The notes under the pieces were generated by a model, which was not told the origin of the DNA, searched no databases, and saw only the letters and a program-made list of their open reading frames with translations. Shown piece by piece: positions 21,077-48,190 of a stretch of 64,000 nt of DNA (position 1 is the first letter of the stretch; each line of letters opens with the position of its first letter). A program made the position numbers and the translations under genes. The DNA lies in contig NC_092326.1 of NCBI RefSeq assembly GCF_036785885.1, forward strand, positions 1,798,001 through 1,862,000. Reading direction: 5' to 3'. The stretch is from Coffea arabica. Lineage: Eukaryota; Streptophyta; Magnoliopsida; Gentianales; Rubiaceae.

Positions 21077-21124
<48 letters not shown>

Positions 21125-24490: not shown

Positions 24491-24848
24491 CACTACAATA
24501 AAAAAGACTTTCTTGGCATACCTATAGAGATGTTTGCTTACATATGTCCTTATAACACTTCTATCATGACACTTAGTATCAACCCAACAATGTATATTCC
24601 AACTATTTTTTATTTTATTTTATTTAAAAATAGAAGTGTATCCCTTCAGAACTCCTATTATGACAGTTGAGTCTATGTGAGATATCTCAAAGGATCCAAA
24701 TAATAATAATAATAATAAAAAAAAAAAAGCGACGTCGTTCCTTTTTTGGCGCAATTTTCAGGCGCCTAAAACTTTTTCCATTCTTGAAATTATGGAACAT
24801 CTATCTCCACTATCTCATCGATCAGAACTCCTCCTTCTTCTCACCAAA

Positions 24849-24850
<2 letters not shown>

Positions 24851-24888
<38 letters not shown>
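24851..24888. repeat. (CT)n microsatellite in the CACTA left region
   Basis: Nineteen CT units in what looks like a transcribed leader (24770-25025). That leader is followed by a plausible intron start (AAG|GTATGT near 25023). Confidence 0.9.
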
Positions 24889-24890
<2 letters not shown>

Positions 24891-25337
24891 AGAGCCTTGC
24901 AGCTCTCTGTCATCAAAAACCCTATCCAACTTTTTACATCTCTCAATCGAGCCTTTCTTTTGAGTTTTTTTTTCGGTTGAATTGCATTGCAGCTGCCATC
25001 GCTCTCTTTGTTCGTTCATTGAAGGTATGTAATTGCTTATTAAACTATGTAATTGTTTATTCATTGAAGGTTTGTTCACTGAATACTCCTACCAATCTTG
25101 ATTTTTTTCTTTTTTTTGTGTGATTATATAAGATATTTTAGCTATCTTTGAAGCCATTTATGAATTGTATCAACAATGGTTCCCTTTTTTGGACTTTTAA
25201 TTGCTCTATTATGTTGAATTAAGATGATTAAACTTCAAAATTGGCCCTAAATTAAGAATAGGTATAGTTAATCTATTTAACCCTTCGATAGTTGAGTTCC
25301 ACTTATTTATTTTTAGGTATGCAGTACCTATCAATTA

Positions 25338-25640
25338 TTGGACTCTATTTTGAAACAAAAACCAACACAGAGGTTGGCTCCCCAACCATTTCAAATAGGA
25401 GGGCCACTGATGCCTGTAATGCATAGTCCAGTGAAGGGTGGTTGTTTGTTGAGGGTAAACATGCCGAGTGTTGGCGAAGATGGTCTGAAGGTCCATCTTG
25501 AGAACAATATTGTATTCTTTGAAGGGTAAAGGAGAAGTAGAACACGAATCTATAGATGTCTTGACTTACAAGTGAATTTAAACTGTCTCGTAGTTAAATC
25601 ACCAAATGATGCATTTAGAAAAAATAGTACCCTGAGTATA
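25338..25640 (+). pseudogene. Small heat-shock-protein-like fragment in CACTA
   Basis: The open segment 25338-25529 contains LLRVNMPSVGEDGLKVHLEN, resembling the alpha-crystallin core of plant HSP20 proteins, especially the organellar type (LRVDMPG...GLKV). The frame ends at a TAA just after VFFEG. In the next frame the sequence continues as GKGEVEHE, which also fits the family, so a frameshift is likely. Only about 70-90 residues of a normal 150-230 are present. The N-terminal targeting region and C-terminal IxI tail are absent. Upstream 24780-25030 looks like an untranslated leader. Lying inside the CACTA ends, it is best read as a host gene piece captured by the transposon. The family call comes from motif wording alone. 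Confidence 0.5.
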
Positions 25641-26192
25641 GTTTAGGATGGTACAAATTTTATAGTTTTTCGACAAGCGTATAGAAAGTAACATCCATTT
25701 CACTAGGCACTAGCAAGAGCCAACTTGAGAAAATTTTTGCTGACTTTCTGTGGGGGGAATTATTCGTGGGTCGTCGGTATCATTGGGTAGCATGGGATAA
25801 GTTGTGTTGTCCCACAGAGGTTGAAAGCCTGGGGTTTCGCTCACTCTCTTCGTTAACGAAGGCTTTTGCGTGTAAGTTTTGGTACAGGTTCCGGAGGAAG
25901 GGAACACTCTGGGCAAACTTCCTTCATGCACGTTACTGTGGTGCCTTGCATCTGAACCAGGTGACACTGGGGCCTTCTGCCTCGCATTCGTGGAAAATAC
26001 TGCTGGCGGCCCGTGGTAGGGTTGAGGAACACTTGGTGTGGGAGCTTTCCAATGGCAGCTGCTCTTTCTTGTGGGATAACTGGGCTGCATGGGGACCTCT
26101 GGCATGGAAGTTCCCTGAGCTTGCTACTATGGCAGTGGTATGGGAGTTCTGGGTAAGGGGGTGATGGGATTCACTTAGTATCGAGCAGTTGG

Positions 26193-26891
26193 TGTTGGGA
26201 AAATCGGGTAATTTCCCACTCAATTGATTCAACTAGTGATTAAACCGATTCAATAATTCCCAAGAAAGATCATTAAAACAATCTCCTTAGACAGAATTAC
26301 CATTCCAAGTAAATTCTCAGGAAAGGCTGGAGGGGTCACAAGCGGTCTCACTTAAAATCCAATCTCCTAGACAGAACTTACGCGCACGGTGTATTATCAC
26401 AACTAGACCCATGTATACATAAATAATACGTACACATGAATAAGAAAAATACACCCAAATGAACCGTATAAAACACTACAAATAAACCCGACAAATATAG
26501 ACAAATATATTGAATACTATACTACAATAGAAAAGAAACTACTAAATAAGTGCGGAATAAATAAAAGAGATAAGGAAAGAACGCACCCGAAAAATTGATG
26601 ACGGAGTTTGGCCAATTTTGCCTACTCTCCAAGCACCACTCAAGCAGCCTGCTCTTATAATTTAGGAGAAGAAATAATTACAAAAGAATTACAAAATCCT
26701 TTTTAGGTAATTCTTTTATTTTTTGGTACACTTGAATTGAGGAGAAGGTGTGCTTATTTATAGCTAACAATCACCTCCCTTCAAAGCCAAACCACCGATG
26801 TGGGATAAGAAAATTTTGCCAAACAAATCAACAATTGTGACTTGAAAAAGTCTACAATTTAGGCTTTGAATTCAAGGTTTTGAATTCAACA
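26193..26891 (-). repeat. Copia 3' LTR
   Basis: 699 bp. It pairs with 31091-31775. Near 26870-26891 the phrase 'ttgaattcaa' is duplicated ('ggctttgaattcaaggttttgaattc' type), which explains the extra 14 bp over the other LTR. A TATA motif lies at 26753-26762 on the - strand. Confidence 0.93.
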
Positions 26892-27001
26892 AATCTCCAC
26901 CTTGGCATAATTTCTAGTCCCACCCAAAAATACAAATCTCCTCTCCTAAAAGATCAAATGGTCCTTGCGGTGCTTCCAAATTTGAGCCCTCAGGCACCAA
27001 C

Positions 27002-30000
27002 TCAAATATACAGGATATTGACCAAATCTAAATAATGTTCAAATTTGAACCTTGTAACCACCTTGGTCAGCATATCTGTAGGATTCTCCGTAGTCCGTAT
27101 CTTCTGGAGAAAAATCTCATCTTCTTCAAGAATTTCCCGCACAAAGTGATAGCGAACATCAATGTGCTTCGTTCTTGCGTGTAAGACCTGGTTCTTTGCT
27201 AAGTGAATAGCACTCTGACTGTCACAAAACACGTCAATGTGTTTTTGACCAACTCCCAAGTCTTCAAGTAATCCTTGAAGCCAAATTGTCTCCTTCAAAG
27301 CTTCTGTAATTGCCATATACTCTGCCTCCGTTGTTGACAAAGCCACCGTTGACTGCAAAGTAGACTTCCAACTAACTGGTGCCTTGGCGAATGTGAACAA
27401 GTAGCCAGTTGTAGAACGTCGCTTATCCAACTCACCTGCATAGTCAGAATCACAATATCCAACTACACATTGACCAAGTGATTTATCCTGCTCAAATACT
27501 AATCCAACATCTACGGTATTTTGGATATACCGTAAAATCCATTTCACAGCTTGCCAATGACCCTTGCCAGGATCATGCATAAACTTGCTTACCACACCAA
27601 CTGCCTGTGAAATGTCAGGTCTCGCACACACCATTGCATATATCAATCTACCAACTGCATTAGCATACGGGACTTTCGCCATGTATGCTCGCTCTTCATC
27701 CGTCTTTGGAGATAATAGGCTATTAAGTTTTAAATGAGGAGCAAGCGGAGTACTTACAGGTTTTGAATTTTTATTTATGCCAAAACGTTGTAGTACTTTC
27801 TTCAAATACTGCTTCTGTGTCAGACAAAACTTGCCTCTCGTTCTATCCCTACTTATCTCCATGCCGAGAATCTTCTTGGCTTCTCCCAAATCCTTCATCT
27901 CGAACTCTTTGCTCAACTGAACCTTTAATTTGTCAATTTCAACTTGGCTCTTTGATGCTATCATCATATCATCAATGTACAAGAATAAGTAGATGTAGGA
28001 CTCATCTCGTAACTTGTGCAAATACACACAGTGATCGTATTTGCTTCTTGTGTACTTCTGGCCCATCATGAATTGGTCAATCGTTTGTACCATTGTCTCG
28101 GTGATTGTTTCAATCCGTACAACGATTTGCTCAGCTTACAAACCAATTCTCTTTACCAGCAACTTTAAATCCATCTAGTTGAAACGTATAGATTTCCTCT
28201 TTCAAATCACCGTGAAGGAACGCTGTCTTCACATCAAGTTGAACTAGCTCCAAATTCAACTGCGCTACCAAGGCCAACAAAATTCTAATAGAGGAATGTT
28301 TAACAACTGGAAAAAATACCTCATTATAATCAACTTCCTCCTTTTGAGTAGCCTTTAGCCACTAATCTTGCCTTGTAACGAATATCATTCTTGTTTGGAA
28401 ATCTTTCTTTCTTTGCAAATATCTATTTGCATCCAATTGTCTTCTTGTCCTTCGGTAGTTGTGTTAACTTCCACGTCTTGTTCTTTTGAAGAGATTGCAT
28501 CTCTTCTTCTATAGCATCTTTCCATCTATCATTTTCTATACTTCGAACTGCTTCAGAAAATATGGATGGAACATCATTAACAACTGGAAGTGCATAGGCC
28601 ACCATGTCAACAAAATGAGCAGGTTTATGAATTTCTCGTTTTGCCCTATTGACGGCAATTGACTCTTGCTGCTGTTGAGGTTCTTGGGTTGAAGCCTCTT
28701 CCTCATCTGACTCCTCTTCTGCCATGGGAGAGTCACTGATGGTGCTGTTTGCTGGACTTACCATTATTTGCTCAAATTTCACCTGTTTCGGCGTACACTC
28801 TACCTGTTGCGGAGTACGACTGGTTCCATCTTGTGTTACCTTATTCAACATGGCAAATTCGTCAAAGGTAACATCCCTGCTGATAATGATTTTCTTTGTT
28901 TCTAGACACCACAACCGGTATCTCTTAACTCCAACATTAAGGCCTATACAGAGAGCCTTCTTTGCACGTGGATCCAATTTTGATTCATTTACATGATAAG
29001 ATGCACTGGAACCAAAAATACGCAAAGAATCATAATCTGTTGCAAGTTTTTCAGACCATACCTCTAATTGAGTTTTGCCACCGATTGTAGATGATGGCAA
29101 GTGATTGACGAGATGTTGAACGTATGTCACAGCCTCAGCCCAAAACTTTCTGCCTAACCCAACATTGGACAGCATGCAACGTACTTTCTCCACTAGTGTC
29201 TTGTTCATACGCTCTGACACCCCATTCTGCTACGGTGTTTTTCTAATTGTGAAGTGTCAAACTATGCCACATTCTTGGCATATTTCTTGGAAGGGATCAC
29301 TCTTGTATTTACCACCATTGTCTGTTTGGATGATCTTGATCTTTCTTCCTGTCTGATTTTCAACCTGAGCTTTCCATTTAAGGAAAATCCCTATCACCTC
29401 ATCCTTACTCTTCATAATAAACACCCAAACTCTTCTGAAAAAATCATCAATAAAAGTGACAAAATAATACCTGCCACCAAGGGATGGAGTCTTGGCAGGT
29501 CCCCATACATTTGAGTGCACATAATCTAAAATACCCTTGGTATTATGGATATCAGTGCCAAATTTCACTCTTCTTTGTTTTCCCAGAACACAATGCTCAT
29601 AAAATTCTAATTTGCAAACTTTCGTACCTTTCAATAATCCTTGTTTGGCAAGATTTTGCAAAGATTTTTCACCAGCATGTCTCAATCGCATGTGCCACAG
29701 CTTTGTTGCCTCCACATCCTTCTTGCTACTGGAAGATGTTATTACTGCTGCTGTCCCAACAACTATACTATCTTGGTAGTAATACAGATTATTCTTCCTC
29801 ACACCTTTCAACATCACAAGTGCTCTCGAAATTACTTTAAGAATTCCGTTTCGCATCTTTATTTCCAGGCCTTTTGACTCTAAAAGTCCCAAAGAGATGA
29901 GATTCCTCTTCAAATTCGGTACGTACTGAGCATCTTTCAGGATTTTGGTGGATCCATCATGATTACGCAACTTGATTGAACCTATCCCACATGTTTTACA

Positions 30001-31020
30001 TGGATTGTCATTTCTCATGTACACAACTCTACCATCAAATTCTTCAAATTCAAAGAACTACTCCCGCATGGGAGACATATGGTAGGTACAAGTTGAATCC
30101 AAAATCCACTCATCTGGATGAGATGTTAAAGGTGATACCGCCAAAGAGAAATCTGATTCCGCATCACTTTTGCACTCTGTAACATTTACGTCTTGCGGAG
30201 TTTTCCCTTTCTTCTTCAACTTTGGACAGTTTTTCTTCTAGTGCCTTTTCTCACGACAAAAAGCACACTCATCTTTGGCAACTCTGCTTTTCGATTTGGA
30301 CCTTCCTCTTCTTCCTTTTGATTGGCTTTGTTGACGACCTCTTGCCATTAACGCTTCACCTGCTGTAGCTATTTTATTCTTCATTTTATTCTACTTTCTC
30401 AATTCATGACTATACAAAGCAAAACATACAGCATCTAAAGACACATTTTCCTTCCCATGAAATAATGTAGTTTCCAAATGTTCAAATTCATCAGGAAAGG
30501 ATGACAACAATATTAAAGCCAAATCTTCATCTTCAAAATTTATATCTAAATTTAACAGGTCTACTACTAACTGATTAAACATAGTGATATGTTCATTCAT
30601 AGTAGTACCTGGTTGGTAATCGAATCGGAACAATCTTTTCTTCATTAGGAGTTTATTCTGACCACTCTTCTTCAGAAATTTCTTCTCCAACGCCCTCCAC
30701 AATTTCCATGCAGAAATCTTGTTCTTGAAAGCACACTTTTGCTCTCTGGACAAACACGATCGAATAGTTCCGCATGCCAACCGATTTATGGTAATCTACT
30801 CCTTCTTTTCTATATCATCTGGTTTCTTTTTTTCAATGACAATGTCAGGACCCTGTTGAAAAAGGGAATCCATGACCTCTCCTTGCCACATGCCGAAATG
30901 GCCAGTACCGTCAAATGTCTCCACCGCCACCTTCAAACTTGACATTGGAATCCTCGACCATGTGGACGAGGAAGCTGATGCCCCAGATATAATTCTTGAC
31001 GTGGAATTGTCTGATGTCAT
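27002..31020 (-). pseudogene. Copia gag-pol polyprotein, inactivated
   Basis: The frame begins at 31020. Gag covers about 31020-30390. A CCHC-type zinc knuckle starts near 30275 (CAFCREKRH). The protease region follows near 30100, GAG-pre-integrase and integrase at 30000-28900, reverse transcriptase about 28440-27700 (YIDDM at the catalytic site near 27965), and RNase H to 27002. From 31020 to 28423 it stays in one frame but has seven stops: 30796, 30391, 30238, 30058, 29257, 29230 and 28423 (lowest base of each). By family pattern four replace Trp, two Gln and one Arg, each a single C-to-T or G-to-A change. Between 28350 and 28085 about three small indels break reverse transcriptase before the last open part (28093-27002). 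The product would copy and insert the element. This copy cannot. Confidence 0.92.
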
Positions 31021-31076
31021 TACAGACTCAAATAATAGTATTCAATATAACAAACAGGCCAAAGGACGAACTTTCG

Positions 31077-31088
31077 ACTCTGATACCA
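31077..31088 (-). other. Copia primer binding site (Met-tRNA type)
   Basis: TGGTATCAGAGT on the - strand, two bases from the 5' LTR end at 31091. It is complementary to the 3' end of initiator methionine tRNA, the usual primer of plant Copia elements. Confidence 0.92.
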
Positions 31089-31090
31089 CT

Positions 31091-31775
31091 TGTTGGGGAA
31101 ATCGGGTAATTTCCCACTTAATTGATTCAACTAGTGATTAAATCGATTCAGTAATTCTCAGGAAAGATCGTTAAAATAATCTCCTTAAACAGAATTGCCA
31201 TTCCAAGTAAATTCCCAGGAAAGACTGGAGGGGTCACAAGCGGTCCCACTTAAAATCCAGTCTCCTAGACAGAACTTACGTGCACGGTGTATTATCACAA
31301 CTAAACCCGTGTATATATAAATAATACGTACACATGAATAAGAAAAATACACTCAAATGAACCGTATAAAACACTACAAATAAACCTGACAAATATAGAC
31401 AAATATATTGAATACTATACTACAATAGAAAAGAAACTACTAAATAAGTGCGGAATAAATAAAAGAGATAAGGAAAGAACGCACCCGAAAAATTGATAAC
31501 GGAGTTCAGCCAATTTTGCCTACTCTCCAAACACCACTCAAGCAGCCTGCTCTTATAATTTGGGAGAAGAAATAATTACAAAAGAATTACAAAATCCTTT
31601 TTGGGTAATTCTTTTGTTTTTTGGTACACTTGAATCGAGGAGAATGAGTGCTTATTTATAGCTAACAATCACCTCCCTTCAAAGTCAAACCACCGATGTG
31701 GGATAAGAAACTTTTGCCAAACAAATCAACAATTGTGACTTGAAAAATTCTACAATTTAGGCTTTGAATTCAACA
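31091..31775 (-). repeat. Copia 5' LTR
   Basis: 685 bp, TG...CA ends. It contains the element's promoter (TATA at 31651-31660) and lies next to the primer site. Confidence 0.93.
31651..31660 (-). promoter_or_regulatory. TATA box of the Copia 5' LTR
   Basis: TATAAATAAG on the - strand, about 120 bp into the LTR. The same word is at 26753-26762 in the 3' LTR. Transcription would run leftward into gag. Confidence 0.7.
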
Positions 31776-33053
31776 GTTGGGTTGCCAGGAAATTTTGGAG
31801 GCTACTAGAGACATATTGTTGGTGATGGGGGAGGATCCGGATTCTCCTTTTTGGGACCTATCGGCTTCAAGTGAATTTGAGCTCAGTTCGATTATTCCAG
31901 TGATTGATGGCCTCCCTCACAAATCCTGGCTGTATGACTCTCTTTGGAGACCGGGGCTGCCACTAAAAATTTCATTCTTTTTGTGGAGGATGTTGGGTCA
32001 TAAGCTTCCAGTAGATACGCGTCTTCGCTGGTTTAGGGTTGCAGGCCCGTCTAAGTGCGTCTGCTGTTCATCGTCGGATGAGGAATCACTTCACCACCTG
32101 TTTGGGAGTAGTGAGATAGCAAACTCGGTTGGGGCTTCTTTGAGAAGCCGCTTGGCATTTTCCGACCACATTCATCTGTGCGGGGTAGGTTTTTTGCATG
32201 GGGAGCTTTAAGGGTACCTAATCTAGCATTAAGGTGGTTATTATAGGTTGCTCTGTCAGTGATTTTCTGGTTTATATGGCAGGCCCATAATAAAGCCCGG
32301 TTTGACAGCGTGGCGCTGGATTGGCGGCATCTTACTTTTCAGATAACCGTGGAGTTGGTGTTGATGTTGAGGGCCAAAGCGAATGTTTGTCTTCTGCTGG
32401 GAACCCCGTGGCATGGAGTGGTAGATTGGTTGCACGCAATCCCTGGGAAGTCGACGGTCTTGCCAGTTGTCTAGGCCCCCCCAGGGGAGGGGCTTACTAA
32501 ACTAAACACGGACGGTTCTGCAAAGGGAGGCACGCATCTAAGTGGTGGGGATGGTGTCCTTCGGGATTCCTCTGGAGCTGTTCTACTAGCATTCGCGGAG
32601 TTTTATGGAGGAGCGTCCGCGCTTCAGGCTGTGGCAAGGGCGTTGTGTACTGGTTTGGAGCTCTGTGTATGGAAGGGGTGTCGAGGATCATGGTGGAGGT
32701 GGATTCCAGGGTGCTGTGGACAATTCTAATATCTAAGGTGGCGGGCCCGTCAACTATTCACGCGGTGATACGGAAGATTTGATCCCTCGTCCTTGCTGTC
32801 CATTCTATTAATCATTGTTTTCGAGAAGGAAATATGGTGGCCGACTCGTTGGCCTCTTTGGCGACACCTGTAACTCCACGGCTGGTTTTCCGCTCTTTTA
32901 ATGGCTTGCCTGCTCGCCCCAGGGGCCTGGTGAGGTTAGATAGATTAGGCATGTGCAATTTTCGAATCCGAGGTGGCCAAATCTTGGCACCCTCCCCACG
33001 TGTATCCTGGTTCTTCTATTTGCAATAAAGAAGCGTTTTGTTTAAAAAAAAGT

Positions 33054-33800
33054 AATCTACTAGTCAATAGTCAGCTATGCACACCTTTATTATTTTGATC
33101 ATAAATTGGTGTAGGAATGTCCAAATTGGATGCCATTTGTTGCACATGAAAGCTGATTCATGTATAAGAATCACGATTTGATTCATTTTCTATTTATTCC
33201 AGTAAATATGTAAATTGGGCAGAAAATTAAACTCTGCATATTTGATAACCATAGATGTGCTAAATTACATGCGAATTTAAGATGGCTTGCAGTTAAAATC
33301 ACCAAGTGATGCATTTTAGCAAAAGCAGTACCCTGAACTAATTTAGGATTATGCAAATTTTATTGTATTTTGATGAATGTATGGTTTGTAACATCCATTT
33401 CGCTAGGCACTTGCTAGAGATAAACTAATCTGCTACCTAACAATCAGCTATGCTCCCTTTTATAATTCTAGTCATAAATTAGTGTAGAAATGTCCAAAAT
33501 GGATGCCATTTATTGCATATGAAACTATATTCAATGATCTTTCATATGAATAAAAATCATGCTTTGATTATTTTTCTATTAGTACCAATAAATTTGCAAA
33601 TTGGACTAAAGATTAACCTCCGCATATCTGCGAACAGATATGTTGAATTACATGCTATTTTTTTGGTGGTTTGTAAGCAAAAATAGAGAATGATATATTA
33701 TCGAGAAAGGTAATACCTTGAGTATAGTTTAGGATGGAAGAAATTTTGTAACTTTTCGACAAATGTAAAGTGAGTTACATCAGTTTCACAAGGCACTAAC
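33054..33800. repeat. 372-bp tandem repeat of the CACTA body
   Basis: Copies at 33054-33425 and 33426-33800 align throughout. Landmarks are 'cagctatgc', 'gatgccattt', 'gattaatt/ttaaactctgcatat' and 'cactaggcac'. The tail of an earlier copy is at about 25570-25714, so LINE A inserted into the array. Divergence is moderate. No gene is visible. Relation to the heat-shock-like fragment next to the first copy is possible but not shown. Confidence 0.8.
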
Positions 33801-34009
33801 ATTGTTAGAAACCATGAATGAGCAGTCTTCATTTTGTCTTTACTCTCATTCATTATTTAATGTTTAATTTCATGTGTATTATGCTTGATTTGATTAAGTG
33901 TTTTAACATAACTTCTATGGGGATTTTTAAATCTTCTAAGTACTAATATGTAATTCTCATTGTCATGCTATTTGAAGTTTGTTGGAGCACATTTGTGTAT
34001 AGTACAAGT

Positions 34010-37000
34010 ATGGATAAGAGTTGGATGGATTTCTCAAGAAAAAGTGAAAAGTACAAGGCAGGACTTAAAATGTTTCTAGAATTTGCATTTTCTAAATCAA
34101 GCTGTGATGGAATGACTTTGTGTCCTTGCAAAAATTGTGGAATGGGTGTTTGTGTGACTAAAATGCAAGAACACAAAATGCAAGAAGTGAATGAAGTGAC
34201 TAAAATTTTGGAGTACCACATGGAACAAATGAAGTGAATGGAGAAGGGGAAATTCCTATTTTAGAGGCTGAAAAATTTTACAAATTGATTAATGATTCTC
34301 AACAGGAATTGTACAATGGTTGTCAAACTTTCACAAAGTTGGCTTTTATTATTCGTTTTCTTCACCTAAAATGTCTTGGTAAGCTGAGTAACAAGATTTT
34401 TAATATGCTTCTTGATCTGTTGAGAGGCATTTCCTGAGGCCATGACTAATTTGTCTTCTTCTTACTATGAGGCTAAGAAATTGATGAACAAATTGGAATT
34501 GGGTTATGAAAAGATCGATACTTGCCCTAATGATTGTACTCTTTATTGGGGTACTATTGAAAAAGAATTTCATGTGAAACATGTAAAGAGCTTAGGTGGG
34601 TTGCCTCAGAAAATGATCCAACTGGTGAAAAAAGAAAAATTCCTCATAAGCATTTTCCCATAAAAGTTAGGTTGCAAAGACTCTTTATTTCTTCTAAATT
34701 TGCATCTCATGAATAAAATCGTACAAAAGATGGTTATATGAGACATCTAGTTGATTCTTCAGTTTGGCAAACTTTTGATCATCTACATCAAAAATTTGCC
34801 AAGGATTGTCAAAATATTAGACTGGGATTAGCATCTAACTGGTTTAATCCATTCAAAAATATGAATACTTCACATAGTACTTGACTTGTGATTTTAATAC
34901 CATATAACTTATCTCCATGGATATGTATGAAGCAACCATACTTCATGATATCTTTGTTAATAGTTGGACTATTCTCTTCTAGAAATAATATTGGTGTTTA
35001 TCTATAGCCTCTAATTAAAGAATTGATAGAATTGTGGGATACTAGCATTCAAACTTATGATGCATCAAAAAAAATAAAATTTTCAATTGCATGCAACCTT
35101 GTTGTGGACTATTAGTGATTTTTCAAGATATGCAATGCTATCTGGGTAGAGCACTAAAGGCAAATATGCTTGTCCTCTTTGTCACAAATTCACCCATTCA
35201 CGATGATTGATTCGTAGTTTCAAATATTGTTACATGGGGCATCACAGATTCTTAGATAGTAAGCATGAGTTTAGAAAGCAAGCTCAATTCTTTGATGGCA
35301 TCGAAGAATATGGAATGTGACCACCTTTGCAAACTGGGGATATGATTTTGAGTGAGTTGGGAGATTTGCAAATTAAATTTGGCAAATTCGTAAAAGGTAA
35401 TCCTAAGCTACCTTTTAATTGGAAGAAAAGGATTATTTTCTTTGACTTACCATACTGGAAAGATAATATCTTTCGACATAATCTTGACTTCTTGCATATT
35501 AAGAAGAATGTTTGTGAAAAAATTTGGGATACTAGCATTCAAACTTATGATGCATCAAAAAAAATAAAATTTTCAATTGCATGCAACCTTGTTGTGGACT
35601 ATTAGTGATTTTTCAAGATATGCAATGCTATCTGGGTAGAGCACTAAAGGCAAATATGCTTGTCCTCTTTGTCACAAATTCACCCATTCACGATGATTGA
35701 TTCGTAGTTTCAAATATTGTTACATGGGGCATCACAGATTCTTAGATAGTAAGCATGAGTTTAGAAAGCAAGCTCAATTCTTTGATGGCATCGAAGAATA
35801 TGGAATGCGACCACCTTTGCAAACTGGGGATATGATTTTGAGTGAGTTGGGAGATTTGCAAATTAAATTTGGCAAATTCGTAAAAGGTAATCCTAAGCTA
35901 CCTTTTAATTGGAAGAAAAGGATTATTTTCTTTGACTTACCATACTGGAAAGATAATATCTTTCGACATAATCTTGACTTCTTGCATATTAAGAAGAATG
36001 TTTGTGAAAAAATTTGGGGAACATTGTTGGATATTGAGGATAAGGCTAAGGACCATTATAATTCATGCTGTGTTTTGAAAGAAATGGGGATAAGGAAAGA
36101 TTTGCATCCCATTGACATAGAAGCTGGAAAGGTTTACTTGCCTCCATCTTCCTTTATAATGGATAAAAATCAGAAAACTATATTTTGTAAGGTTCTTAAA
36201 AAGGTAAATGTGCCAGATGGTTATGCAGCTAACATTTCAAGATGTCTGCAAGTAAAATCACCTAAAATTTCAGGACTTAAAAGTCATGACAATCATATCC
36301 TAATCCAACAACTATTGCCCATAGATTCGAGAAAGATTTTACCAAAACCTGTGCGCTTTTCCTTTGATTTGGTTGAGTAAATACTTCAGGCAGCTTTATT
36401 CTAAAATGATCTGCTTACAAGATGTGGTATGTTTGGAAAAGGATATTGTAGTTATACTCTGTCAATTGGAGAAATATTTTTCACCGAAATTCTTTGACAT
36501 CATGGTGCATTTGACTATTTATTTATCGATTAAAGTGAAGTTAGGTAGACCATTGCATTATCGTTGGATATACCCCATTGAAAGGTAATATTTGAAATTT
36601 TCATTATGCTTTAAATTTTTTTGTTGCTTTTCGATTTCTTTGATATTGGAAACTATTCATTAAACCTGAAACTATGATAATTTAGGTATTTGAGAACATT
36701 GAATTCTTATGTTCAAAATAAAAATAGGCTTGAAGGTTTTGTTGCTCAAGGCTACTTAGCAGAAGAATGTTTGAATTTTTGCTCCTTATATCTAATAGAC
36801 TATATTGAGACGAAATTCAATTGTCCAAGGAGAAATAAAGAAGTGAACCAGAAAAATGAAGTTGGATTAGATATATTCTCAGAACCAAGCCATTCTTTGG
36901 GTAAAGGCAAGCCAACAGTTTTTGATGCTTAAACGTTGAATAAAGCACATCAGTATGTCTTGTTCAGTTGTGATTTTGTCACACCTTACATTGACTAAGT

Positions 37001-37804
37001 TTAACTAGGGCTTGATGCATAAATTTTTTTCGATAGTAGATGTAATGTTGTAATGTTATATTATACACTTCCAGGCAGCACTGCAAATTGGTCAAAGAAG
37101 GTCATCCTCAAGCTGTGCAACATCTATTGGAGCGTTTACATAGTGAAAATTTTGCTTCTTGGTTTGTTGGACATGTAAGTAATAGTTTGGTGAATTTATT
37201 AACTAATGCATTTGAATTCTTAGTATTCCAATATCTTTTTATCTTTTCTTTTATAGATTGAAAAGTTAGAACTTTCTCAGAGCTAGCCTTAAGAGATCTA
37301 AGGTTCCTTGCTAAGGGTCCAGATGTTGTTGGAATTTGATATGACAAGTATATTGTTAATGATTTTTGGCTTCATACCAAAGAAGTTGAAAAGAAAAGAA
37401 AAACTCAAAATAGTGGTATTGCTGTCAAGTTAATAATATCCAGTTTTGCAAGTATAAGGGACCAAAATCCTATTTTGAGTGAACTAGTTTACTATGGTGT
37501 CTTGAAAAATATAATTGAGTTAATTTATTGAGGTTGTTGGGCGGTATTATTTGAATGTGATTGGATATCGAATAGAAATAGATTGAAATAGGATGTTGAT
37601 GGGTTAATACTGGTTAATTTTACAAATGTAAGGCCTTATAATGAACCTTTTATACTTGCTTTACAAGCATCACAAGTATTTTATGTGGAAGACCCAACTG
37701 ATAAGAATTGGCAAGTTGTTATTTCTACCACTACAAGAGTTGGATACAACATGGAGACTCTTATAGGTGTTAAGACACATTTGCAAAGTGATGTTGGCAA
37801 TCCA
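34010..37804 (+). pseudogene. CACTA TNP2-type transposase, inactivated
   Basis: Domain pieces appear in the normal order. The transposase-associated domain starts MDKSWMDFSRKSEKY at 34010 with a C.CKNC motif near 34122. TNP2 follows from 34460 (YYEAKKLMNKLELGYEKIDTCPNDC, 34463 on) through the open stretch 35697-36380 (LPYWKDNIFRHNLDFLHIKKNVCEKIW). The DUF4218 region is at 36240-36900 (NISRC, GLKSHD, QQLLP, then RPLHYRW and AEECLNFCSLYL in later exons), and a DUF4216-like tail is near 37310-37780 (YDKYIVNDFWL, LVYYGVL). The enzyme normally cuts and joins transposon ends in the nucleus. The frame has several stops (for example in 34430-35110 and 37257-37560), frameshifts, a 490-bp duplication and a SINE at its end, so no full product can be made. 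Confidence 0.88.
35036..36015. repeat. 490-bp tandem duplication in the transposase
   Basis: 35036-35525 and 35526-36015 are almost identical; both begin GGGATACTAGCATTC. The one difference I saw is at the codon near 35320/35810: TGA in the first copy and CGA in the second. The near-identity makes this a late event compared with the rest of the gene's decay. The intact downstream open frame (35697-36380) starts in the second copy. Confidence 0.93.
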
Positions 37805-37807
37805 GTT

Positions 37808-37994
37808 TTTTTTTTTTCCTAATGGAGTGGGTGTCCAGGTCAATCCTTACGGGGCCTGACTAATCCCACTCCGGCCCGGAAGGAGAGGCCCCATCCCCCC
37901 GAACATGTTAACCACGGGACTCGAATCCTTGCGGGAGACTGGACAACGGCCTTAAGGAAGCAACCGTGACCAAATGAGCTGCCCTGTGAGGGGC
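37808..37994 (-). mobile_element. tRNA-derived SINE (Au-like) with 15-bp duplications
   Basis: On the - strand an A-box-like AGCTCATTTGGTCACGG (37980-37964) and a B box GGATTCGAGTCCC (37928-37916) lead into GC-rich body sequence and an A-tract (T-run at 37806-37817 on +). The flanks GTTGGCAATCCAGTT (37793-37807) and GTTGGCAATCTAGTT (37995-38009) differ at one base and are the target duplication. It has no protein and relies on LINE reverse transcriptase. It is inserted in the CACTA transposase tail. Confidence 0.9.
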
Positions 37995-38173
37995 GTTGGC
38001 AATCTAGTTATTGACAATGAAAATAAGGAAATTGGTTAGGTTCGTGATGATGCACCTAGGATTGAAGTTGATTTGACTCGATATTACCTAGTTTAGTATC
38101 ATAGTTGAGAGAAAGTAGTTTCAGATTTTTATTGTTTCTTTTTTGGCCTCTGTAAAGAATAATCTTATCTTAT

Positions 38174-39421
38174 ATGGGAATGACCGAACCCCAATACCCG
38201 CCATGGCTTAGGGTAGGGAACGATAAGCAGCGTTCCTCCGGTCAGCAACAGTTTGGCAAAACCAGAACTCCCGCTGGGGGAGAGTTCCAATCCCACACCA
38301 CCGCTGATGGAGCCTTGAAAGGCAAGGAGTCTTCTTTGGTTATGACTCCAGCAGACCGCATGTCAAAAAATGGTACTGGGGACGCTCCTCATGATCTCTC
38401 CATGCTATTGGATTCAAATCAAATCTTACTGGATGATGATCGGGCTCAATCTATCCCAACAAACGGGCATTCTCGGGCCCCAGGTAGACCAAGAGTAATA
38501 GGGAGAGAGTCCGAAGCTTTCGGTGAGGGTGTGCCCCCTCCTAGTACTGCGAGGTGCTCCACCCCGCTCCAACAGATTGCTAATTCCTTATCTGCCCCCT
38601 CAAACATGCTACCCGAGGTGCCCATACTATCCAAAGCTACAACCTCCCCGAACAAAATGGAAGCAACACCTCCAAACCTTGTATCACTCACGAACCCTCA
38701 TCCTTCAACCTCTCAACCAGCCCAATCGATTACAACCTCGACTATCTCTCTCTTAGCCAATACAATGTCTTCCCCTAGAACCACTAACCAATATACTCCA
38801 TCCCCAACCCAGGTTGTTTTGACCCATCACACTCAGCCTTCCAACCCCGACCCCAGAAAACAAGATGTCACATCCCTTTCCGCTAGGCAAAATCACCACA
38901 AAACCTCTGTGCCAATTCTTCAAGTTTCAACCGTCACCCTTCTGGATAGCCCGACACGTGATATCCTACAGGGGGACAACAAAACCCCCCGAACACCTGA
39001 CCAGTTCCACCTCAACCCTGACCCTATTACGTCCAAACCCGTTCTACCAAACATACCTTCCGAAATAAATCTCTCGACCAATAATCCGGTCTCACCTGAT
39101 CTTTTCCTAGTTGATGCCACTCTATTACAGCAGAGGACGACCACTGACCTCCAGGGCATTCGCTCTATTGCTAGCTCAGTAAGACAGAAGCAAAGCAAAG
39201 CCATCCGTAAACCTTTGAAGTCGAGCCCCTCACAGGCATCACGCTACGGTTCTCTACTCAGCCATATAGCTCAGCGCAGCGACAAACACGCCAGGCCAGC
39301 TGATATGGATATAGAGGATACAATAGACTCTAAGAGACGCAAGCTAGGAGTCTCAGCTACTTTTACTCCTGCAAACAATGAAACAGCGGAGACTGGTGCC
39401 CAGTCCCGCCGAGAGCCATGA
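38174..39421 (+). pseudogene. LINE B ORF1 protein, C-terminal part
   Basis: 415 codons are open. The start (QYPPWLRVGND) matches the stretch that follows the DUF4283 and zinc-knuckle regions in plant L1 ORF1 proteins, so about the first half is gone. The rest is Ser/Thr/Pro-rich and low in order, ending with a basic patch (SKRRKLGV). ORF1 proteins bind LINE RNA. The ATG at 38174 is probably not the original start. The stop overlaps the ORF2 start in ATGA at 39418-39421, which suggests termination-reinitiation. Confidence 0.75.
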
Positions 39422-42400
39422 ATCTCCTAAGTTGGAACTGTCGGGGGTTAAATAATTCCCGTACAGTTCGAGAACTCCGGCATATTGTCCGGAGAGAAAA
39501 AATTGATATTGTTTTCCTGGTAGAAACTAAGTGTTCTAGTAGGGCCGTTGACAAACTGAAAGTGCAATTTGGATGGTTTGGAATGGGAGTAGATGCCAAG
39601 GGTCTCTTTGGTGGTCTAGCTCTCTTATGGAGAAAGGACATCGACATATCTTTGAATCGGTTCTCTAGTAGCTTCATTGATGTCACCGTACGAACCGATG
39701 GTTCCCCTTGGCGCCTTACCGGTTTTTATGGGCATCCTGAAGCTGCTAAAAGGAAGTTGTCATGGGACCTGTTACGCACTCTCAGTGGTCAATCTACACT
39801 CCCATGGGTGTGTATGGGTGACTTTAATGAGGTGCTAAATCAATGTGAATTTCACAGCAGAACTGGCCTGAGGCAGAACTGGCAAATCATGAATTTTCGA
39901 AAGGTACTGTCAGACTGCCATCTTTATGACTTAGGTTGTAAAGGGTTTCAGTTCACTTGGTGTCATGGTCAACATACACCGAACACGATCCGGGCCAGAT
40001 TGAATCGTGCATGCGCTACTCAGGAGGCGGTTGATCTGTTTCCAGGAGTTGAGGTATCCCATGTTCATGCCTTATACTCAGATCACACCCCCATTGTCGT
40101 GAATCTGTCAAAATCAGCTCGTCTCTCCCAGCACCCAAAACCATCTGCACGAAGGAGGAAGTGCTTTATGTTTGAGGCTATGTGGATAAAAGCTACTGAC
40201 TGTGCTGATATCATCAAGCAAACATGGGATAGTGTTTCAGCTACTAATGCGGGTGATAATCTGCTGTCTAAAATGGATGCATGTCGTATCGGCCTTTTGA
40301 CCTGGAGTAAGCAGAAGTATGGGAATTGTTGCAGAAGAGCTGATGAACTAAGGGCCAAGATTGCTCAGTTGCAATAGGGTGTTCTCACTAACGCTATTAA
40401 AGCAGAGATTGGTTCTCTAACCAGTCTATTAGAAGACATCCTTGATCGTGAAAATTTGATGTGGAAGCAAAGAAGTAAGGTTCATTGGTTTCATGAAGGG
40501 GATCGTAATACGGCTTTCTTTCACTCCCAGGCAACCAAGCGCATGAAACACAATCACATTGACGGGCTCTACAATAAACTGGGGCTCTGGTGCCAATCGC
40601 ATGAGGACCTGGAGGCTATCATTCTTGATTATTTTGGCACAATCTTTTCTACTTCTTGACCTTCTCCGGAGGCGACTGATGCTGTTCTTGAAAGGGTGAG
40701 ACAAAGGGTGACTAAGCAAATGAATGACTCACTTCTGCGAACCTACCATCCTATTGAGGTGACACAGGCTCTGGCGCAGATGCACCCACTCAAATCCCCA
40801 GGCCCTGATGGTATGTCCCCAATTTTTTATCAAAAGTTCTGGCATATTATAGGACAAGATATTATTCGTTGGGTCCTCTCCTTTCTTAATAACGGTCTTT
40901 TTGATGAGCGTATTAACTACACCTACATAGTCCTCATTCCCAAATGCCCTGACGCATCCGATATTTCTCATTTCCGTCCCATTAGTCTGTGTAACGTAGT
41001 TTACAGATTAGCTTCTAAGGTTATTGCTGCTAGATTTAGTAATGTTCTAGGGAGAATCCTCTCTCCCTATCAATCAGTTTTCCTACCAGGGCGTTTTATT
41101 ACTGACAACATTCTCATTGCCTTTGAGATCAATCATTCCCTAAAGCTAAAGACTGATGGCAAGGAAGGATCCATGTCTATCAAACTGGACATGAGCAAAG
41201 CTTTTGACAAGGTTGAATGGTCTTTTCTCTGGGAAATGCTGTTAGCCCTAGGCTTTCATCTTGATTTTGTTAATCTTCTCTATCGATGTATTTCCACAGT
41301 TTCATACTCTTTCCTCCTCAATGGCCAGCAGTTTGGTCATCTAAAGCCCCAACGTGGCATTCGGCAAGGGGACCCTCTCTCTCCTTACCTATTTCTCATT
41401 TGTGCAGAGGCTTTTTCTTGTTTGTTACAGGAGGCAGAACGCTGTGGTAACATTTCTGGGGTCCAAGCAGGAGCTGATGGACCAAGGATTTCTCACTTTT
41501 TGTTTGCAGATGACATCTTGTTGTTCGGCAAAGCAACGCTCCGTGAGGCTCAGCATATCAAGTCCATCTTGCAACTTTACAAATATGCATCTGGACAGGA
41601 AATAAACTTGGACAAATCTGCTATAGTTTTTAGCAGAAATACTAGCTCCGAGGTGAGGCAGAGCATTACTAACTTTCTTGGCATCAGAGAGACTGCAGCA
41701 CATGACAAATATCTGGGTCTCCCAACAGTCATTGGTTGCTCCAAAAGGGCAGTTTTCTCATCAATCAAAGATAGAATATGGCGAAAGATCCATGGCTGGA
41801 ATGAGCAGCGGTTGTCAAGGGCAGGAAAGGAAGTACTGATCAAGGCTGTAGTCCAGGCTATCCCAACGTACTCTATGTCTTGTTTCAAATTCCCAGACTC
41901 CCTACTTGGAGAGATTCAGTCAATGATAAGTGACTTTTGGTAGGGTGATGGAAAAACAGGAAGACCTATTCATTGGGTTAGCTGGGACAAGCTTTGCACC
42001 AGTAAAACAGACGGAGGAATGGGGTTCAGGCAGCTTAAGTCTTTTAATCTCGCGTTGCTAGCAAAGCAGGCTTGGCGCATTGCAACACAAACCTCCACAC
42101 TTCTACATCACGTCTATAAAGCTAAATACTTCCCCAACTCTGATTTCTTTCAGGCAACTGAAGGTTCACGCCCCTCCTGGACCTGGAGAGGAATCTGTGG
42201 AGTGCGTAAATATATAGTTGCTGGTAGCCGATGGCGGGTCGGGGATGGAACCAACATCAAAATCTGGCATGACCGGTGGCTACCTCGTCCTTCTACTTTT
42301 AAAGTGATATCTCACTCAACTTTATTGCCTGATGACTCTACTGTAGCTTGCTTAATTGACGGTGCTACAAGAGCTTGGGATTTGGATCTTTTGCACGACC

Positions 42401-43566
42401 TTTTCTGGCCAGACGAAGTTGACTTGATTAAGAGTATTCCAATAGGAGACTCTCATAACCCAGATAAACTTATCTGGCATTACACAACAAATGGTTTCTT
42501 CACTGTCAAATCGGCCTACCACCTGATCAAACAACAATCCCAGGACTGGCAGAATGTAGCTTCGTGCAGCAATAGTATGGGGACGAATACATGGGGGAGA
42601 TTATGGAAGTTGAGTCTGCCAACCAAAATTAAAATTTTTCTATGGAGATGTTGCACGGACACTTTGCCAACCAAAGTCAAGCTTCACACACGAGGAGTAT
42701 TGCTGGAGACATCCTGTGTTATTTGTAGCGCCCCATCTGATGACATGAATCACACCTTCCTTTCTTGTCCAGTGGCTATTCAATCGTGGGCACTCAGCCA
42801 TTTATCTACAAAAGTTCGATTGAATAAGGCCCAGCAAGTCACAATTTGGCTTCCGAATCTCCTACATCATCTACCACGAGAAGACATGGAACTGGTGGCT
42901 ATCATACTGTGGAATCTCTGGAATAATCGTAATGGAGCTACCTTTGCTGGTTCCTATAGAGACCCCCTTAGCCTGGCTTCACTTTCAATGAATTTTTTGC
43001 ATCAATATCGTGATGCTATTTCAAACCCAACACACGGGTCAATAACCTCTACCCACTACCAAGCCACTCGAACGCATTAGACTAAGCCTCGGATGGGTTT
43101 TGTCAAAGCAAACTTTGACGGGGCCATCTTTCCGTCAGAAGGTTTCTCTGGTATTGGGGTGGTAGTGCGTGATGACGCAGGCAATTTCATAGCGGGGTTG
43201 ACGAAGAAGATCCCCGGTGTTTTGGCCCCTGACGTGATTGAAGCGTATGCTGCAAAATTTGGAACGAAACTGCTGGTTGAGCTGGGCTATAGTCACGTGG
43301 CTCTTGAAGGTGACAACCTCAAGGTTATCAAAATGCTCCAGCTTTGTGACTCTGATGATTCGGCATGTGGCGTATTGGTCGAAGATGTCCTGCAGCTCCT
43401 GAGAAGTTTCGCCAAGTGGGAAACCACATGGATACCGCGTTCTTTGAACAGCGCAGCTCATAGCTTTGCTAGGAATGCTTGTACTGCCTTGGATGACTAT
43501 ATGTGGAATCTTTCACCCCCGTCTTTTGTATTATCTGCACTACAGGCGGACCTCATTCCATCTTAA
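39418..43566 (+). pseudogene. LINE B ORF2: endonuclease, reverse transcriptase, RNase H
   Basis: A single reading frame with no frameshift runs for 1,382 codons but holds four stops: TAG 40375, TGA 40657, TAG 41941 and TAG 43078. The endonuclease domain is first (LSWNCRGLNN, ETKC, GDFNEV, SDHTPI; 39418-40110). Reverse transcriptase follows (SPGPDGM 40795, FRPISLCN 40972, GIRQGDP 41356, FADD 41506). The zinc-binding region (LPTKIKIFLWR, 42619) is next, and a plant RNase H domain (NFDGA 43111, EGDNL 43306, AAHSFAR 43456) ends the frame. The protein nicks target DNA and copies LINE RNA there. By context the stops replace Gln, Arg, Trp and Trp, each one C-to-T or G-to-A change. With four stops this copy is inactive. 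Confidence 0.93.
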
Positions 43567-43793
43567 TAAAAACTTTTACACTCCTCTATCAAAAAAAAAA
43601 AAGCTTTCTATTTAGTATTTATCATTTTGTTCTTTACTTTTTGGTTTTGTAATTTGCTAGAACATGAAGTTATGAATATTGCTATTGTCATTGTCTTTTT
43701 CGTATGACTTGCTGTTATGATTTGCTTGATATTGATGGCTAATTATGCAAGACTGTTATGATTTGCTTGATATTGATGGTTAATTATGCAGGA

Positions 43794-46115
43794 ATGGCTC
43801 GTAAAGCTCGAAAACATTATCAAGCTTCAAATGGATTGAGAGATGAACTAATTCAACAACCTCCATCAAGACATGAAATGGTGTAGTAGTCTTTACTTGA
43901 TACAAGGCATGAAGCATTGCAACAATCTCAAATTCAACAGCATCAAGTTGAAAGTTCACATGAACAGGTTCAACAATCTCCAATTCAGCATTGTTCGACT
44001 GGAATAAGGAATGAACCAACTTAGAAATTTCAGAATATACCAATACAAGATGGTACAGATCCAAATTACAATGAATTCAACTTCATCCAGCAAAGTGACA
44101 TCGCAGGTATTAGCTAACTATTTTATCTAAAAATTTTCATCTCATAAATTAGTCCTATTTTTACAAATAATGTTGGGGAAGATAAAATTATATGTACAAA
44201 ACAAGGCACTAGCCTGAATTGCATTTTTAAGTTGACTATAAGCATATTTATTTTTATATTGTACTACAAGGTAATACACATGATTCAAGTGCTGCACCAA
44301 AACAAACTCAAGACCCTACCCTACATATATGAAAGAAATTTGGGGTGGTCTAAGGACCTTCCATGGATTAAGATTGAATTTAATGACAAAGGGTTGCCAA
44401 TAAGTAAGAAAACTAAGTTTTCTGAATTTTTGGGTAGTCTTGCTAGAAATGGTATGTATTATCCAGTAGATGTTGAAAGTTGGCCCAAGGTGGCAAGAAA
44501 ACCTAAAATGGACATGTTAGATGTGATAAAGGTAATGAGCAGTTTTTGTAAAATATATTTTTGTCAAAATTCTATTGTATTGTGCATATTTTTTTTATTT
44601 TGAGTATGTTTCAGGAAAGGTTTAATTTACTTCATGGACTGGAAGCTTGGACCTTAAGGTCTATTGGCAAAAAATGGAGAAGCTAGAAGTCAGACTTTAA
44701 GGCAATATATTTTGATCCTAATTTGCCAATTTATGAAGTGAAGTTTCATAAAGATGTAAGGGTTCGGGACGAGCAATGGATAAACGTATGGACTTATTGG
44801 AAAAGTGAATGTGCAAAGGTGCAATCAACTGCAACATTCTTAATAAAGTTGAATTTATTCAATTGCAATATCTTGGTTATGATTTTCAATTTCAAAAAGT
44901 AAGTGAGAGGAACAAGAAAGCTAGAGAGGAGAAGAAGATGAACCACACAACGGGAAAGAAATCATTTGCTCAGATTCGAAATAAATGATGATATCCTTAA
45001 TGTTTTAATAGCTAAATATTTTTTGTTCAATAGCTAAATCTGTAATTGAAAAATAAATTTGCTTATAGGCCAAAGAGTTGGGATGTCCTCCTACTAGAGT
45101 AGAAATTTTGATAGATTCTATACCCATGCTGATGGAACTCCATCAAATAACATAGTTGCTGAGAATTTGGTAAGAATCCATGAAAAGTAACACAAATGTT
45201 TGAATTGCGTTATTGTTCTCATTATAATTGTAGTAACAAGTGTTTTGCTTTCTTCTGTAGCACAAATGAATTGAAAAATCAACTTCCACCAGATTCACAA
45301 GATCTAGTTGGTCGAATTGATATATTTGCCCAAGTAGTTGGGCAAGACAAAACATGGTCATGTTCACTTGTTTGGTGAAGGTGTCAATTCGACGGATTTA
45401 TGGGGAGACATCCCTAGTGGCAGCATGTGCCACCGTATAGCTGTTGAGCAACAGTCAACATTATCAAGAATGGAGGAAAGACTTTAGTGACAAGATAAGG
45501 AAATTGGCAATTTCAAGAGGTTGGTTTTAGTGTAATAAGGAGGTCGCAGTACACCAGATAGCCCTAGATATCCTTCGTCATCGTTTAACAATATTTCAAA
45601 CTATACTCCAGTGCGACCTCTTTGAGTAAGTGTCTAAAACTGCTAAATTTTTAGGTGGTGAATCTAAAATTAGGCTAACAAAGAGGAAAATATGAAAATA
45701 AATGAAAATTATAGAAAGTTAATTTCAGTAGCTGAATTATTGAAAAAAATGGATGCCTTGTTTTCAGTCTTACAATATTTCTTTAGAATTTTTCTTTGTT
45801 TACTCTTCAGTTTTTCAAGTGGACATGGTCAAAATTTCAGCATGACTTTGATTCTTCTATTTACTGGCTCTTTTAATAGGTAGAAAATATGGTTTCGCTC
45901 AAAAGTTTGTTTGATCAAACAAAAATTGTGGTAAAGGGATATTTAAGTAGTATGAATCCGTTGGATGAAGCCGGGAGATAAGTTGTTGGATCAAATTGGT
46001 ATGAGATACATGTATAAGTTGCTGTGAATCCAAATGAGCAATTGATTAGATCCCACGATTTGCGACAAACAATTCAAGATGTACTTGGAGCACCAATTGC
46101 TTGGCCTGGTAATTT
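43794..46115 (+). pseudogene. CACTA second gene (Ptta/En/Spm transposase_24-like)
   Basis: A likely first exon begins MARKARKHYQASNG after an AG at 43788-43790, with a Gln-rich stretch containing two adjacent stops (43884-43889). An exon at about 44270-44532 matches the plant Ptta/En/Spm domain (IKIEFNDKGLPI, FSEFLGSLARN). The next, 44614-44820, has RDEQWINVWTYWKSE, and after it come NKKAREEKK and HTTGKKSFAQIR (about 44905-44985). Near 45285-45355 lies DLVGRIDIFAQVVGQDK, and 45905-46115 carries the usual C-terminal block ending APIAWPGNLV. In active CACTAs this protein works with TNP2 and binds subterminal repeats. Stops and frame changes show it is dead. A 41-bp repeat (43710-43791) precedes the ATG. 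Confidence 0.8.
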
Positions 46116-47310
46116 GGTACTATATCTAAATATTATACTCATAGGTTTTTTTGGTATTTTATTGCTATATGTCACTTCATTGTAATGAGTTATCTAACCT
46201 TTATGTTAAGATCAAGTTAAGTGAGATTTTTGTATGCAATTTGTTGTGGTACATGTGATTCTTTTGGGCTGATTATTAATGAATAATAGTATATATTAAT
46301 TTGTGGATTGTTAGGAGGGATGAATTTCCTATATTTGTACTAATTTGGTATTTCATTCTTGAGGATTGCAAGTTTCACGGTTTCATTTCGACAAAGTGTT
46401 GCTTATTTGGTTCTGCTGGTTGTAATATCCTCAAGCTGTGCAACATCTGTTGCTACATTTCAACCTATTGCTAAAGCTAGACTATTTTTTGTTGGGTCTA
46501 TTTCTTATACCAATTATCTTTGTGCACAGGTGATAGCAACTGAAGATTGATAGTGATGTCTATCACCCTCTTGGCGATGAATAAAGCCTCCAATTTGGTT
46601 GGAAGCTTTGAAGCTTGCACAAGTTCTTTCAACTTTTGCAACCTGAAAAATCTTTTGTTTTAATTTTATGCTTGTGGCAGCATTGTTTGCTATTGTTATA
46701 GAATTTCGAACAACTTTTCTGATTAATTTGCTATGCTAGTATTGATTAATGACTTTTATTCTAAGAAATGGTATTGGAGCAATTGGATTTGCTTTTAAAA
46801 AATTAGATCATTTTATAGTTTCATAATTTTTTATTCATATATAGCTGATTGCAGATTGTATAACAGGGAGTACTAGTAGGTTGTTTCATCCTTTGAAAAA
46901 AAAAATAATCTCTTAACAGGTTAAAGTGTTAGCATAGTTGAATGTGCAAAGACCAAAACTATGTCTATTGAGACGTTAGGGTGTTATCTAAAGCCTCCTT
47001 TTTTATGGCATATCTAAATGTCTTTAAAAGTTATATGACAAGGCATCTTAAAGTGCCTTCACAGAAAATTAAACTTCTAACGTTTTGGAGTTACCCTGAC
47101 ATTAGGGATTGGCAAGAAAAGCGCCTTTTTTTTTTTGGCAATTATATTGCCTCATTAAATGAGTTTTCGTAACACTTTTAAATGCCATAGAACTATCCCC
47201 ACATCAGAAGGGACGACACCTACCTAAGTTGTGAGGAAAGGTAAAGTGTCAACTTATATTATCTACACTGACACTTTCAAATGTCCTTGAAGACCTTTTT
47301 TGTTGTAGTG
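46116..47310 (+). repeat. CACTA right subterminal region
   Basis: No gene. Short words such as 'gacgttaggg'/'gacattaggg', 'cttttaaatgcc' and 'atgtctttaaaagt'/'atgtccttgaag' recur in both orientations, as expected for subterminal binding repeats. The terminal inverted repeat closes it at 47310. Confidence 0.6.
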
Positions 47311-47458
47311 ATAGAAAATTCAAAAGGAAAACTATGTGTTGAAGTGGTATTAAAGTTAGATTTTGGGTTTTTCTATCCATTCAAAAATCAAAAGGAAAAC
47401 TATGTGATGATTTTGATATTTTTAGTTTACTAAACTTTTTTATTTGTGTATTGCATGT

Positions 47459-47465
<7 letters not shown>

Positions 47466-47508
<43 letters not shown>
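47466..47508. repeat. (AT)n microsatellite
   Basis: About 21 AT units, 155 bp outside the CACTA right end. A shorter (AT)9 lies at 47939-47956. Confidence 0.95.
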
Positions 47509-47511
<3 letters not shown>

Positions 47512-47973: not shown

Positions 47974-48190
47974 TATTCCCTCCGTTCCACTTTGATAGCT
48001 CTATTTTCCTTTTTCGTCTGTCCCAAATTATAGTCCACTTTTCAATTGAATAATGTAGTTATCTTTCAATTTCTCTAAAATACCCTTATTCAATGTAGAT
48101 TGTTATTAGTATAAACTACTTCATTTAATATAGATTGTTAACTTGCCCCATTTAATACATTTAGATTTTTCAAAACATATTGATATATGA
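47974..48190 (+). mobile_element. Stowaway-like MITE fragment, one end only
   Basis: TATTCCCTCCGTTCC at 47974 resembles the terminal repeat of Stowaway/mariner MITEs (CTCCCTCCGTCCC). The following 200 bp is MITE-like, but no inverse partner is found downstream, so the right end is missing. The complete relative is at 51760-52183. Confidence 0.55.

Follow-up and report, generated by a model that had tools for sequence, protein, structure and literature searches.

A CACTA transposon of Coffea arabica interrupted by a LINE-Copia nest and by two further retroelements

The stretch of Coffea arabica DNA analysed here (contig NC_092326.1, positions 1,798,001 to 1,862,000 of the forward strand; 64,000 nucleotides, hereafter the window) contains an interval, 24491-47310, that is very probably a single CACTA transposon. 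The element was later cut by a long interspersed nuclear element (LINE A), which was itself cut by a Copia retrotransposon, by an element resembling a short interspersed nuclear element (SINE), and by a second LINE (LINE B). With the limits set here, the CACTA element's own parts amount to 9,827 of the 22,820 bases and 57% of the interval is inserted DNA, the share that a first-pass annotation of the sequence had given. That annotation also proposed four levels of insertion; only three were found, and the deepest nest consists of CACTA, LINE A and Copia.

Results

Ends and subterminal regions of the CACTA element

The interval is bounded by CACTA-type ends of 16 bp that are alike at 15 of 16 bases, and ATA adjoins both outer sides. 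Comparison of the ends thus bore out the borders at 24491 and 47310 and the duplication that had been reported for them. The features at the two ends are the following.

24488-24490, no strand: left target-site duplication, ATA (left flank AACATA)
24491-24506, + strand: left terminal inverted repeat, 16 bp, 15 of 16 bases matching the right end
24555-24639, no strand: left subterminal region with three AAGTGT motifs in both orientations (0.18 expected in the first 250 bp)
46924-47276, no strand: right subterminal region with four AAGTGT motifs, from the motif count
47295-47310, - strand: right terminal inverted repeat, 16 bp, from the end comparison and mismatch scan
47311-47313, no strand: right target-site duplication, ATA, from the end comparison

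A first-order Markov model of the window predicts 0.003 partners of the right end, at one mismatch or fewer, on each 64-kb strand, and gives a chance probability of 0.021 for a 3-bp duplication at the ends. A scan of both strands of the window, allowing up to four mismatches to the CACTA end, found fewer than two mismatches at the two ends only; the two sites with two mismatches lie one in each Copia long terminal repeat (LTR). The AAGTGT motif occurs three times in the left 400 bp and four times in the right 400 bp, with 0.28 copies expected per end. The terminal inverted repeats beginning with CACTA, the 3-bp duplication and a tnp2-type transposase gene together place the element among the CACTA transposons.

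An imperfect direct repeat (79% identical) spans the right end at 47300-47342 and recurs at 47368-47410, 68 bp outside it; the common part is mostly flank rather than CACTA sequence.

Transposase genes

Two genes of the CACTA element lie inside 24491-47310, and both are read on the + strand.

33947-38097, + strand: tnp2-type transposase gene with Transpos_assoc, Transposase_21, DUF4218 and DUF4216 domains; limits approximate, 3' end set by joining the sequences on either side of the SINE-like element
35030-36018, + strand: 490-bp tandem duplication within tnp2, from the window self-comparison
43794-46182, + strand: tnpA-like gene, outer limits set by eye, with domains matched at 44887-44982 and 45898-46083

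The tnp2 gene is the more firmly identified, with a best Transposase_21 (tnp2) match of 1.5e-45. Its domains are spread across three frames and the gene is split by the SINE-like element; the frame changes suggest that the CACTA element is inactive. The copies of the 490-bp duplication, which sits in the tnp2 domain, differ at 3 of 490 ungapped bases. The first-pass annotation had placed both CACTA genes inside the interval in one orientation. The orientation holds, and the second gene is tnpA-like by matches that fall under the Pfam curated cut-offs, namely Transposase_24 with E 1.4e-4 and 22.5 bits (cut-off 28.7) and Transposase_23 with E 0.0053 and 17 bits (cut-off 21). No second relative of tnp2 or tnpA was found in the window at E 1e-3, which speaks for a single element.

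Two short repeats accompany these genes. A 26-bp stretch of tnp2 (37104-37129) recurs with 25 of 26 bases at 46427-46452, near the 3' end of the tnpA-like region, and is possibly filler DNA from repair. A 41-bp unit stands twice in tandem at 43712-43793, right before the presumed tnpA start.

LINE A and the Copia element within it

The 5' region of the CACTA element holds a tandem repeat that is interrupted by LINE A, which in turn is split by the Copia element.

25552-25719, + strand: partial unit of the internal repeat, on the left side of LINE A, 77.6% identical to 33251-33419
25718-33047, + strand: LINE A, 5'-truncated and degraded, with Copia splitting it and a short poly(A) at its end
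26188-26192, no strand: GTTGG, left target-site duplication of Copia
26193-26891, - strand: Copia 3' LTR, 699 bp, adjoined by a polypurine-tract-like sequence
26892-31090, - strand: Copia internal region with gag, integrase, reverse transcriptase and RNase H pieces, containing stops and frame changes
31091-31775, - strand: Copia 5' LTR, 685 bp, adjoining the primer-binding-site-like TGGTATCAGAG
31776-31780, no strand: GTTGG, right target-site duplication of Copia
33049-33797, + strand: two more tandem units of about 375 bp, from the window self-comparison

The borders of LINE A were set at 25718 and 33047 because the tandem unit of about 375 bp breaks off at the start of LINE A and is picked up again past its poly(A). 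The two units to the right (33049-33411 and 33422-33797) are 69.9% identical over 379 aligned bases. LINE A is recognised by its zf-RVT (1.2e-15) and RVT_3 RNase H (6.9e-7) domains; the reverse transcriptase core is missing through the 5' truncation. Its left part has no Pfam match and is 25-28% identical to open reading frame (ORF) 2 of LINE B.

The Copia element occupies 26193-31775 (5,583 bp) on the minus strand, within LINE A. Both LTRs read TGTTGG...TCAACA on the + strand, and the element shows TG...CA LTRs, a 5-bp duplication, a primer-binding site and a polypurine tract; the last two are assigned by motif. Along the minus strand the domains follow in the order gag (Retrotran_gag_2, 1.2e-22), gag_pre-integrs (9.7e-15) and rve (4.2e-9), SH3_retrovirus (1.1e-19) and RVT_2 (2.6e-19), so that integrase precedes reverse transcriptase, the Copia order; an RVT_3 match (0.0061) is below its cut-off. 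The element is not intact, because its coding pieces are parted by stops and two frame changes. These pieces run on consecutively and leave no room for a large insert.

Alignment of the LTR pair, which had been proposed as a means of dating the Copia insertion, gave 652 identical bases out of 685; the 33 differences comprise 29 transitions and 4 transversions, and there is in addition a 14-bp indel. The Kimura two-parameter distance of 0.050 corresponds to 1.9 million years at 1.3e-8 or 3.9 million years at 6.5e-9 substitutions per site and year, both rates being assumed.

SINE-like element and LINE B

The remaining two insertions entered the CACTA element separately from LINE A, near the end of tnp2 and just behind it.

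37793-37807, no strand: left copy of the SINE duplication, GTTGGCAATCCAGTT, whose last bases run into poly-T
about 37808-37994, - strand: SINE-like element; its minus strand carries a B-box-like GGATTCGAGTCC and a poly(A)
37995-38009, no strand: right copy of the SINE duplication, GTTGGCAATCTAGTT, with 14 of 15 bases as in the left copy and 10 bases exact
38130-43603, + strand: LINE B, left limit uncertain (about 38100-38165), with poly(A) to 43603

The SINE-like element sits inside tnp2, and when its flanks are joined the tnp2 frame runs on with one stop in frame. A B box assigned by consensus, a poly(A) and a target-site duplication are those of a tRNA-derived SINE; no tRNA or Rfam model matched it in the window (Rfam at gathering threshold).

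LINE B starts about 100 bp past the SINE-like element. Its domains are those of a plant L1-type LINE, namely an endonuclease (Exo_endo_phos, 8.9e-18), a reverse transcriptase (RVT_1, 1.9e-31), zf-RVT (4.4e-18) and RNase H (RVT_3, 4.3e-20), followed by the poly(A). ORF2 lies in one frame with four internal stops. ORF1 has no Pfam match and, judged by a motif, presumably starts mid-ORF, so that LINE B is probably also 5'-truncated.

A possible heat-shock gene fragment in the 5' region

Left of LINE A lies a short frame similar to the beginning of the alpha-crystallin domain found in small heat-shock proteins.

25317-25571, + strand: candidate HSP20-like fragment, in which one frame change must be read over

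With the frame change read over, the fragment has three PDB matches up to E 10, all to chloroplast small heat-shock chains (E 0.0096, 0.012 and 0.035; taken by itself, the first one's best single stretch is weak, i-Evalue 14), and matches Pfam HSP20 at E 0.042, with 14.4 bits against a cut-off of 20.8. When the frame change is not read over, no Pfam match was obtained and the PDB matches were HSP21 at E 1.2 and a ribosomal protein at E 1.6. These weak matches suggest, as a possibility, that part of a small heat-shock (HSP20) gene was captured. A wider proposal, which we offer tentatively and regard as somewhat doubtful, is that the CACTA element, before the retroelements broke it, had taken up a piece of a nuclear gene for a small heat-shock protein and bore the repeat of about 375 bp in its 5' region, so that the repeat would now place the LINE A insertion within a few bases without the aid of any target-site duplication.

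Discussion

Depth and order of the insertions

The anatomy of the locus and the relations of interruption can be read directly from the window. LINE A, the Copia element inside it, and the SINE-like element and LINE B as separate insertions are all present, as the first-pass annotation had them, and the order it gave, CACTA, then LINE A, then Copia, follows from which element interrupts which. The 490-bp duplication in tnp2 (0.6% different) would be younger than the Copia insertion (LTRs 4.8% different) if both diverged at the same rate. We propose that an ATA site about 850 bp downstream from a 2-oxoglutarate-dependent oxygenase gene received a CACTA element of the En/Spm type, whose own sequence amounts to about 9.8 kb. 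This element would then have lost its function. A 5'-truncated LINE A would have copied itself into the CACTA 5' region and the Copia element would have inserted into LINE A afterwards; separately, the SINE-like element would have entered tnp2 near its end, and LINE B just behind. The 490-bp tnp2 stretch would have been duplicated in tandem after the Copia insertion, given one divergence rate. The modes of arrival were presumably transposase, target-primed reverse transcription and integrase.

One element or several

We infer that both ends derive from one CACTA element. Several observations weigh against the reconstruction of a single element with serial insertions. The ends had been called identical-looking; they are alike over 16 bases, and the match fades past these, to 20 of 30 and 24 of 40. 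Both family matches of the tnpA-like gene are below cut-off, as given above. The LINE alignment starts at 25631, 87 bases left of the limit set for LINE A; this extension carries almost nothing, because the score is 56.2 bits with it and 55.8 without, a gain of only 0.4 bits. No target-site duplication was found for LINE A, for which the longest shared string is 7 bp and lies away from the junction, and no convincing one for LINE B, for which the best shared string is 8 bp and not beside the poly(A); a partial match of 9 of 11 bases near 38134 is a candidate spotted by eye only. Finally, the AAGTGT motif near both ends is supporting rather than decisive evidence, because it was chosen post hoc, after the sequence had been looked at, and because random pairs of stretches can share a 6-mer too: in a control, some 6-mer was present at least three times in each member of 191 of 3000 pairs at 250 bp, 332 of 3000 at 300 bp and 887 of 3000 at 400 bp. 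The six commonest shared 6-mers in each of these lists are, however, AT-rich (e.g. AAAATT).

The shortness of the end match would be accommodated if the left and right ends came from separate members of one CACTA family, the interval being a composite formed by deletion or recombination. The sequence from the left end to the first tnp2 domain, which may hold foreign material (the HSP20-like fragment and the tandem repeats), could be taken in the same sense. Such a composite would have to show ATA on both outer sides, for which the chance is about 0.02, and AAGTGT near both ends; it is further opposed by the presence of one tnp2 and one tnpA-like gene in the same orientation, and by the window containing no further site with one mismatch or fewer to the ends. 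We consider it unlikely. A chance match between the ends, with the genes left over from a CACTA element whose true ends are lost, draws on the end sequence being short and A-rich, but the expectation of 0.003 partners per strand in 64 kb and the chance of 0.021 for the duplication make it very improbable. Least probable of all, and hardly to be expected, is a nest four deep through an extra insert inside Copia. Nothing was found in its favour; the Copia coding pieces are consecutive and a 5,583-bp element with LTRs of 685-699 bp leaves little room. A single CACTA element with later insertions is thus the best reading of the interval.

Comparison with other CACTA elements

The coffee element resembles Tgmt* of soybean, as far as the available part of its description goes (PMC2613891), in having short imperfect CACTA inverted repeats (13 bp in Tgmt*), an ATA duplication and, as a candidate feature of the coffee element, repeated subterminal motifs; in both, a TNP1- or Transposase_24-type region comes after the tnp2 domain, matched below the cut-off in the coffee element. 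The subterminal motif is TTGGCAG in Tgmt* and, as a candidate, AAGTGT in the coffee element. In contrast to the coffee element, with its broken genes, Tgmt* is described in the same part of that account as putatively autonomous and expressed; it measures 20.5 kb, whereas the coffee element has about 9.8 kb of its own and 57% of its interval belongs to other elements (PMC2613891). The portion consulted of a study of Chenopodium CACTA elements, including 'Jozin' (PMC8978399), describes gene fragments captured 5', ahead of the transposase-associated domain, as may be the case in the coffee element; some of the Chenopodium elements also contain tandem repeats, as the coffee element does. The Chenopodium array comprises 32.5 monomers of 171 bp near the 3' end, while that of the coffee element comprises two units and a part, of about 375 bp, in the 5' region; unlike the captures described in Chenopodium, the possible one in the coffee element is weakly supported (PMC8978399). 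The grapevine Cactavine families, in the text consulted (PMC2528002), are likewise long (10-25 kb), mostly held to be defective, and in some cases carry transduplicated gene parts; a nest like the coffee locus is not described for them in that text.

Bacterial and archaeal genome contigs were scanned with an 87-residue DUF4218 piece of tnp2, and one relative was found among 37 candidate stretches, with 46% identity. This stretch (L001) lies on a contig filed under Candidatus Burkholderia humilis, a leaf-nodule symbiont, and contains at 8006-10204 much of a plant-type tnp2 gene, 28-50% identical by segment; its 18,478 bases hold no match to an 11-base CACTA-end pattern. It is probably host-plant DNA in the symbiont assembly. 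A scan of viral contigs with the exact CACTA-end pattern yielded one stretch (L002), with CACTA-like ends at 1841 and 7454 and no protein-level match to the CACTA element at E 1e-3; at a guess, L002 could be of plant and not of viral origin.

The surrounding window

The content of the window, with its CACTA element, L1-type LINEs with RNase H and 2-oxoglutarate oxygenase genes, looks plant-like. The 2-oxoglutarate-dependent oxygenase genes share one orientation and lie at 18289-23642, from 49467 onward and, as the first exon of a third, at 63686-64000. Between the first and third genes, the first exon is 91.5% identical over 331 aligned bases, and that of the middle gene is about 67% identical to either. 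A paralogous empty site was sought by way of these tandem genes; in a self-comparison of the window (E 1e-4, low-complexity filter on) there was no self-match inside 23643-24490 or 47311-48844.

Direct repeats at 52299-53217 and 61276-62372, 89.7% and 94.0% identical and about 9 kb apart, are LTR-like. Read-through frames of 53200-57800, the part of the interval between them that was scanned, contain no Pfam domain at E 0.001. At 5529-6479, a unit of about 290 bp is repeated in tandem about three times, with copies 88-92% identical.

Implications

Nested transposons are common in plants, and the locus is a well-supported, ordinary case that leaves the open questions of the field untouched. It is a clean example of the ordering of insertions by interruption, and offers two measures of divergence, the Copia LTRs and the 490-bp duplication. 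For annotation, it means that a CACTA element of about 9.8 kb of its own sequence is recoverable even though its inserts more than double its length.

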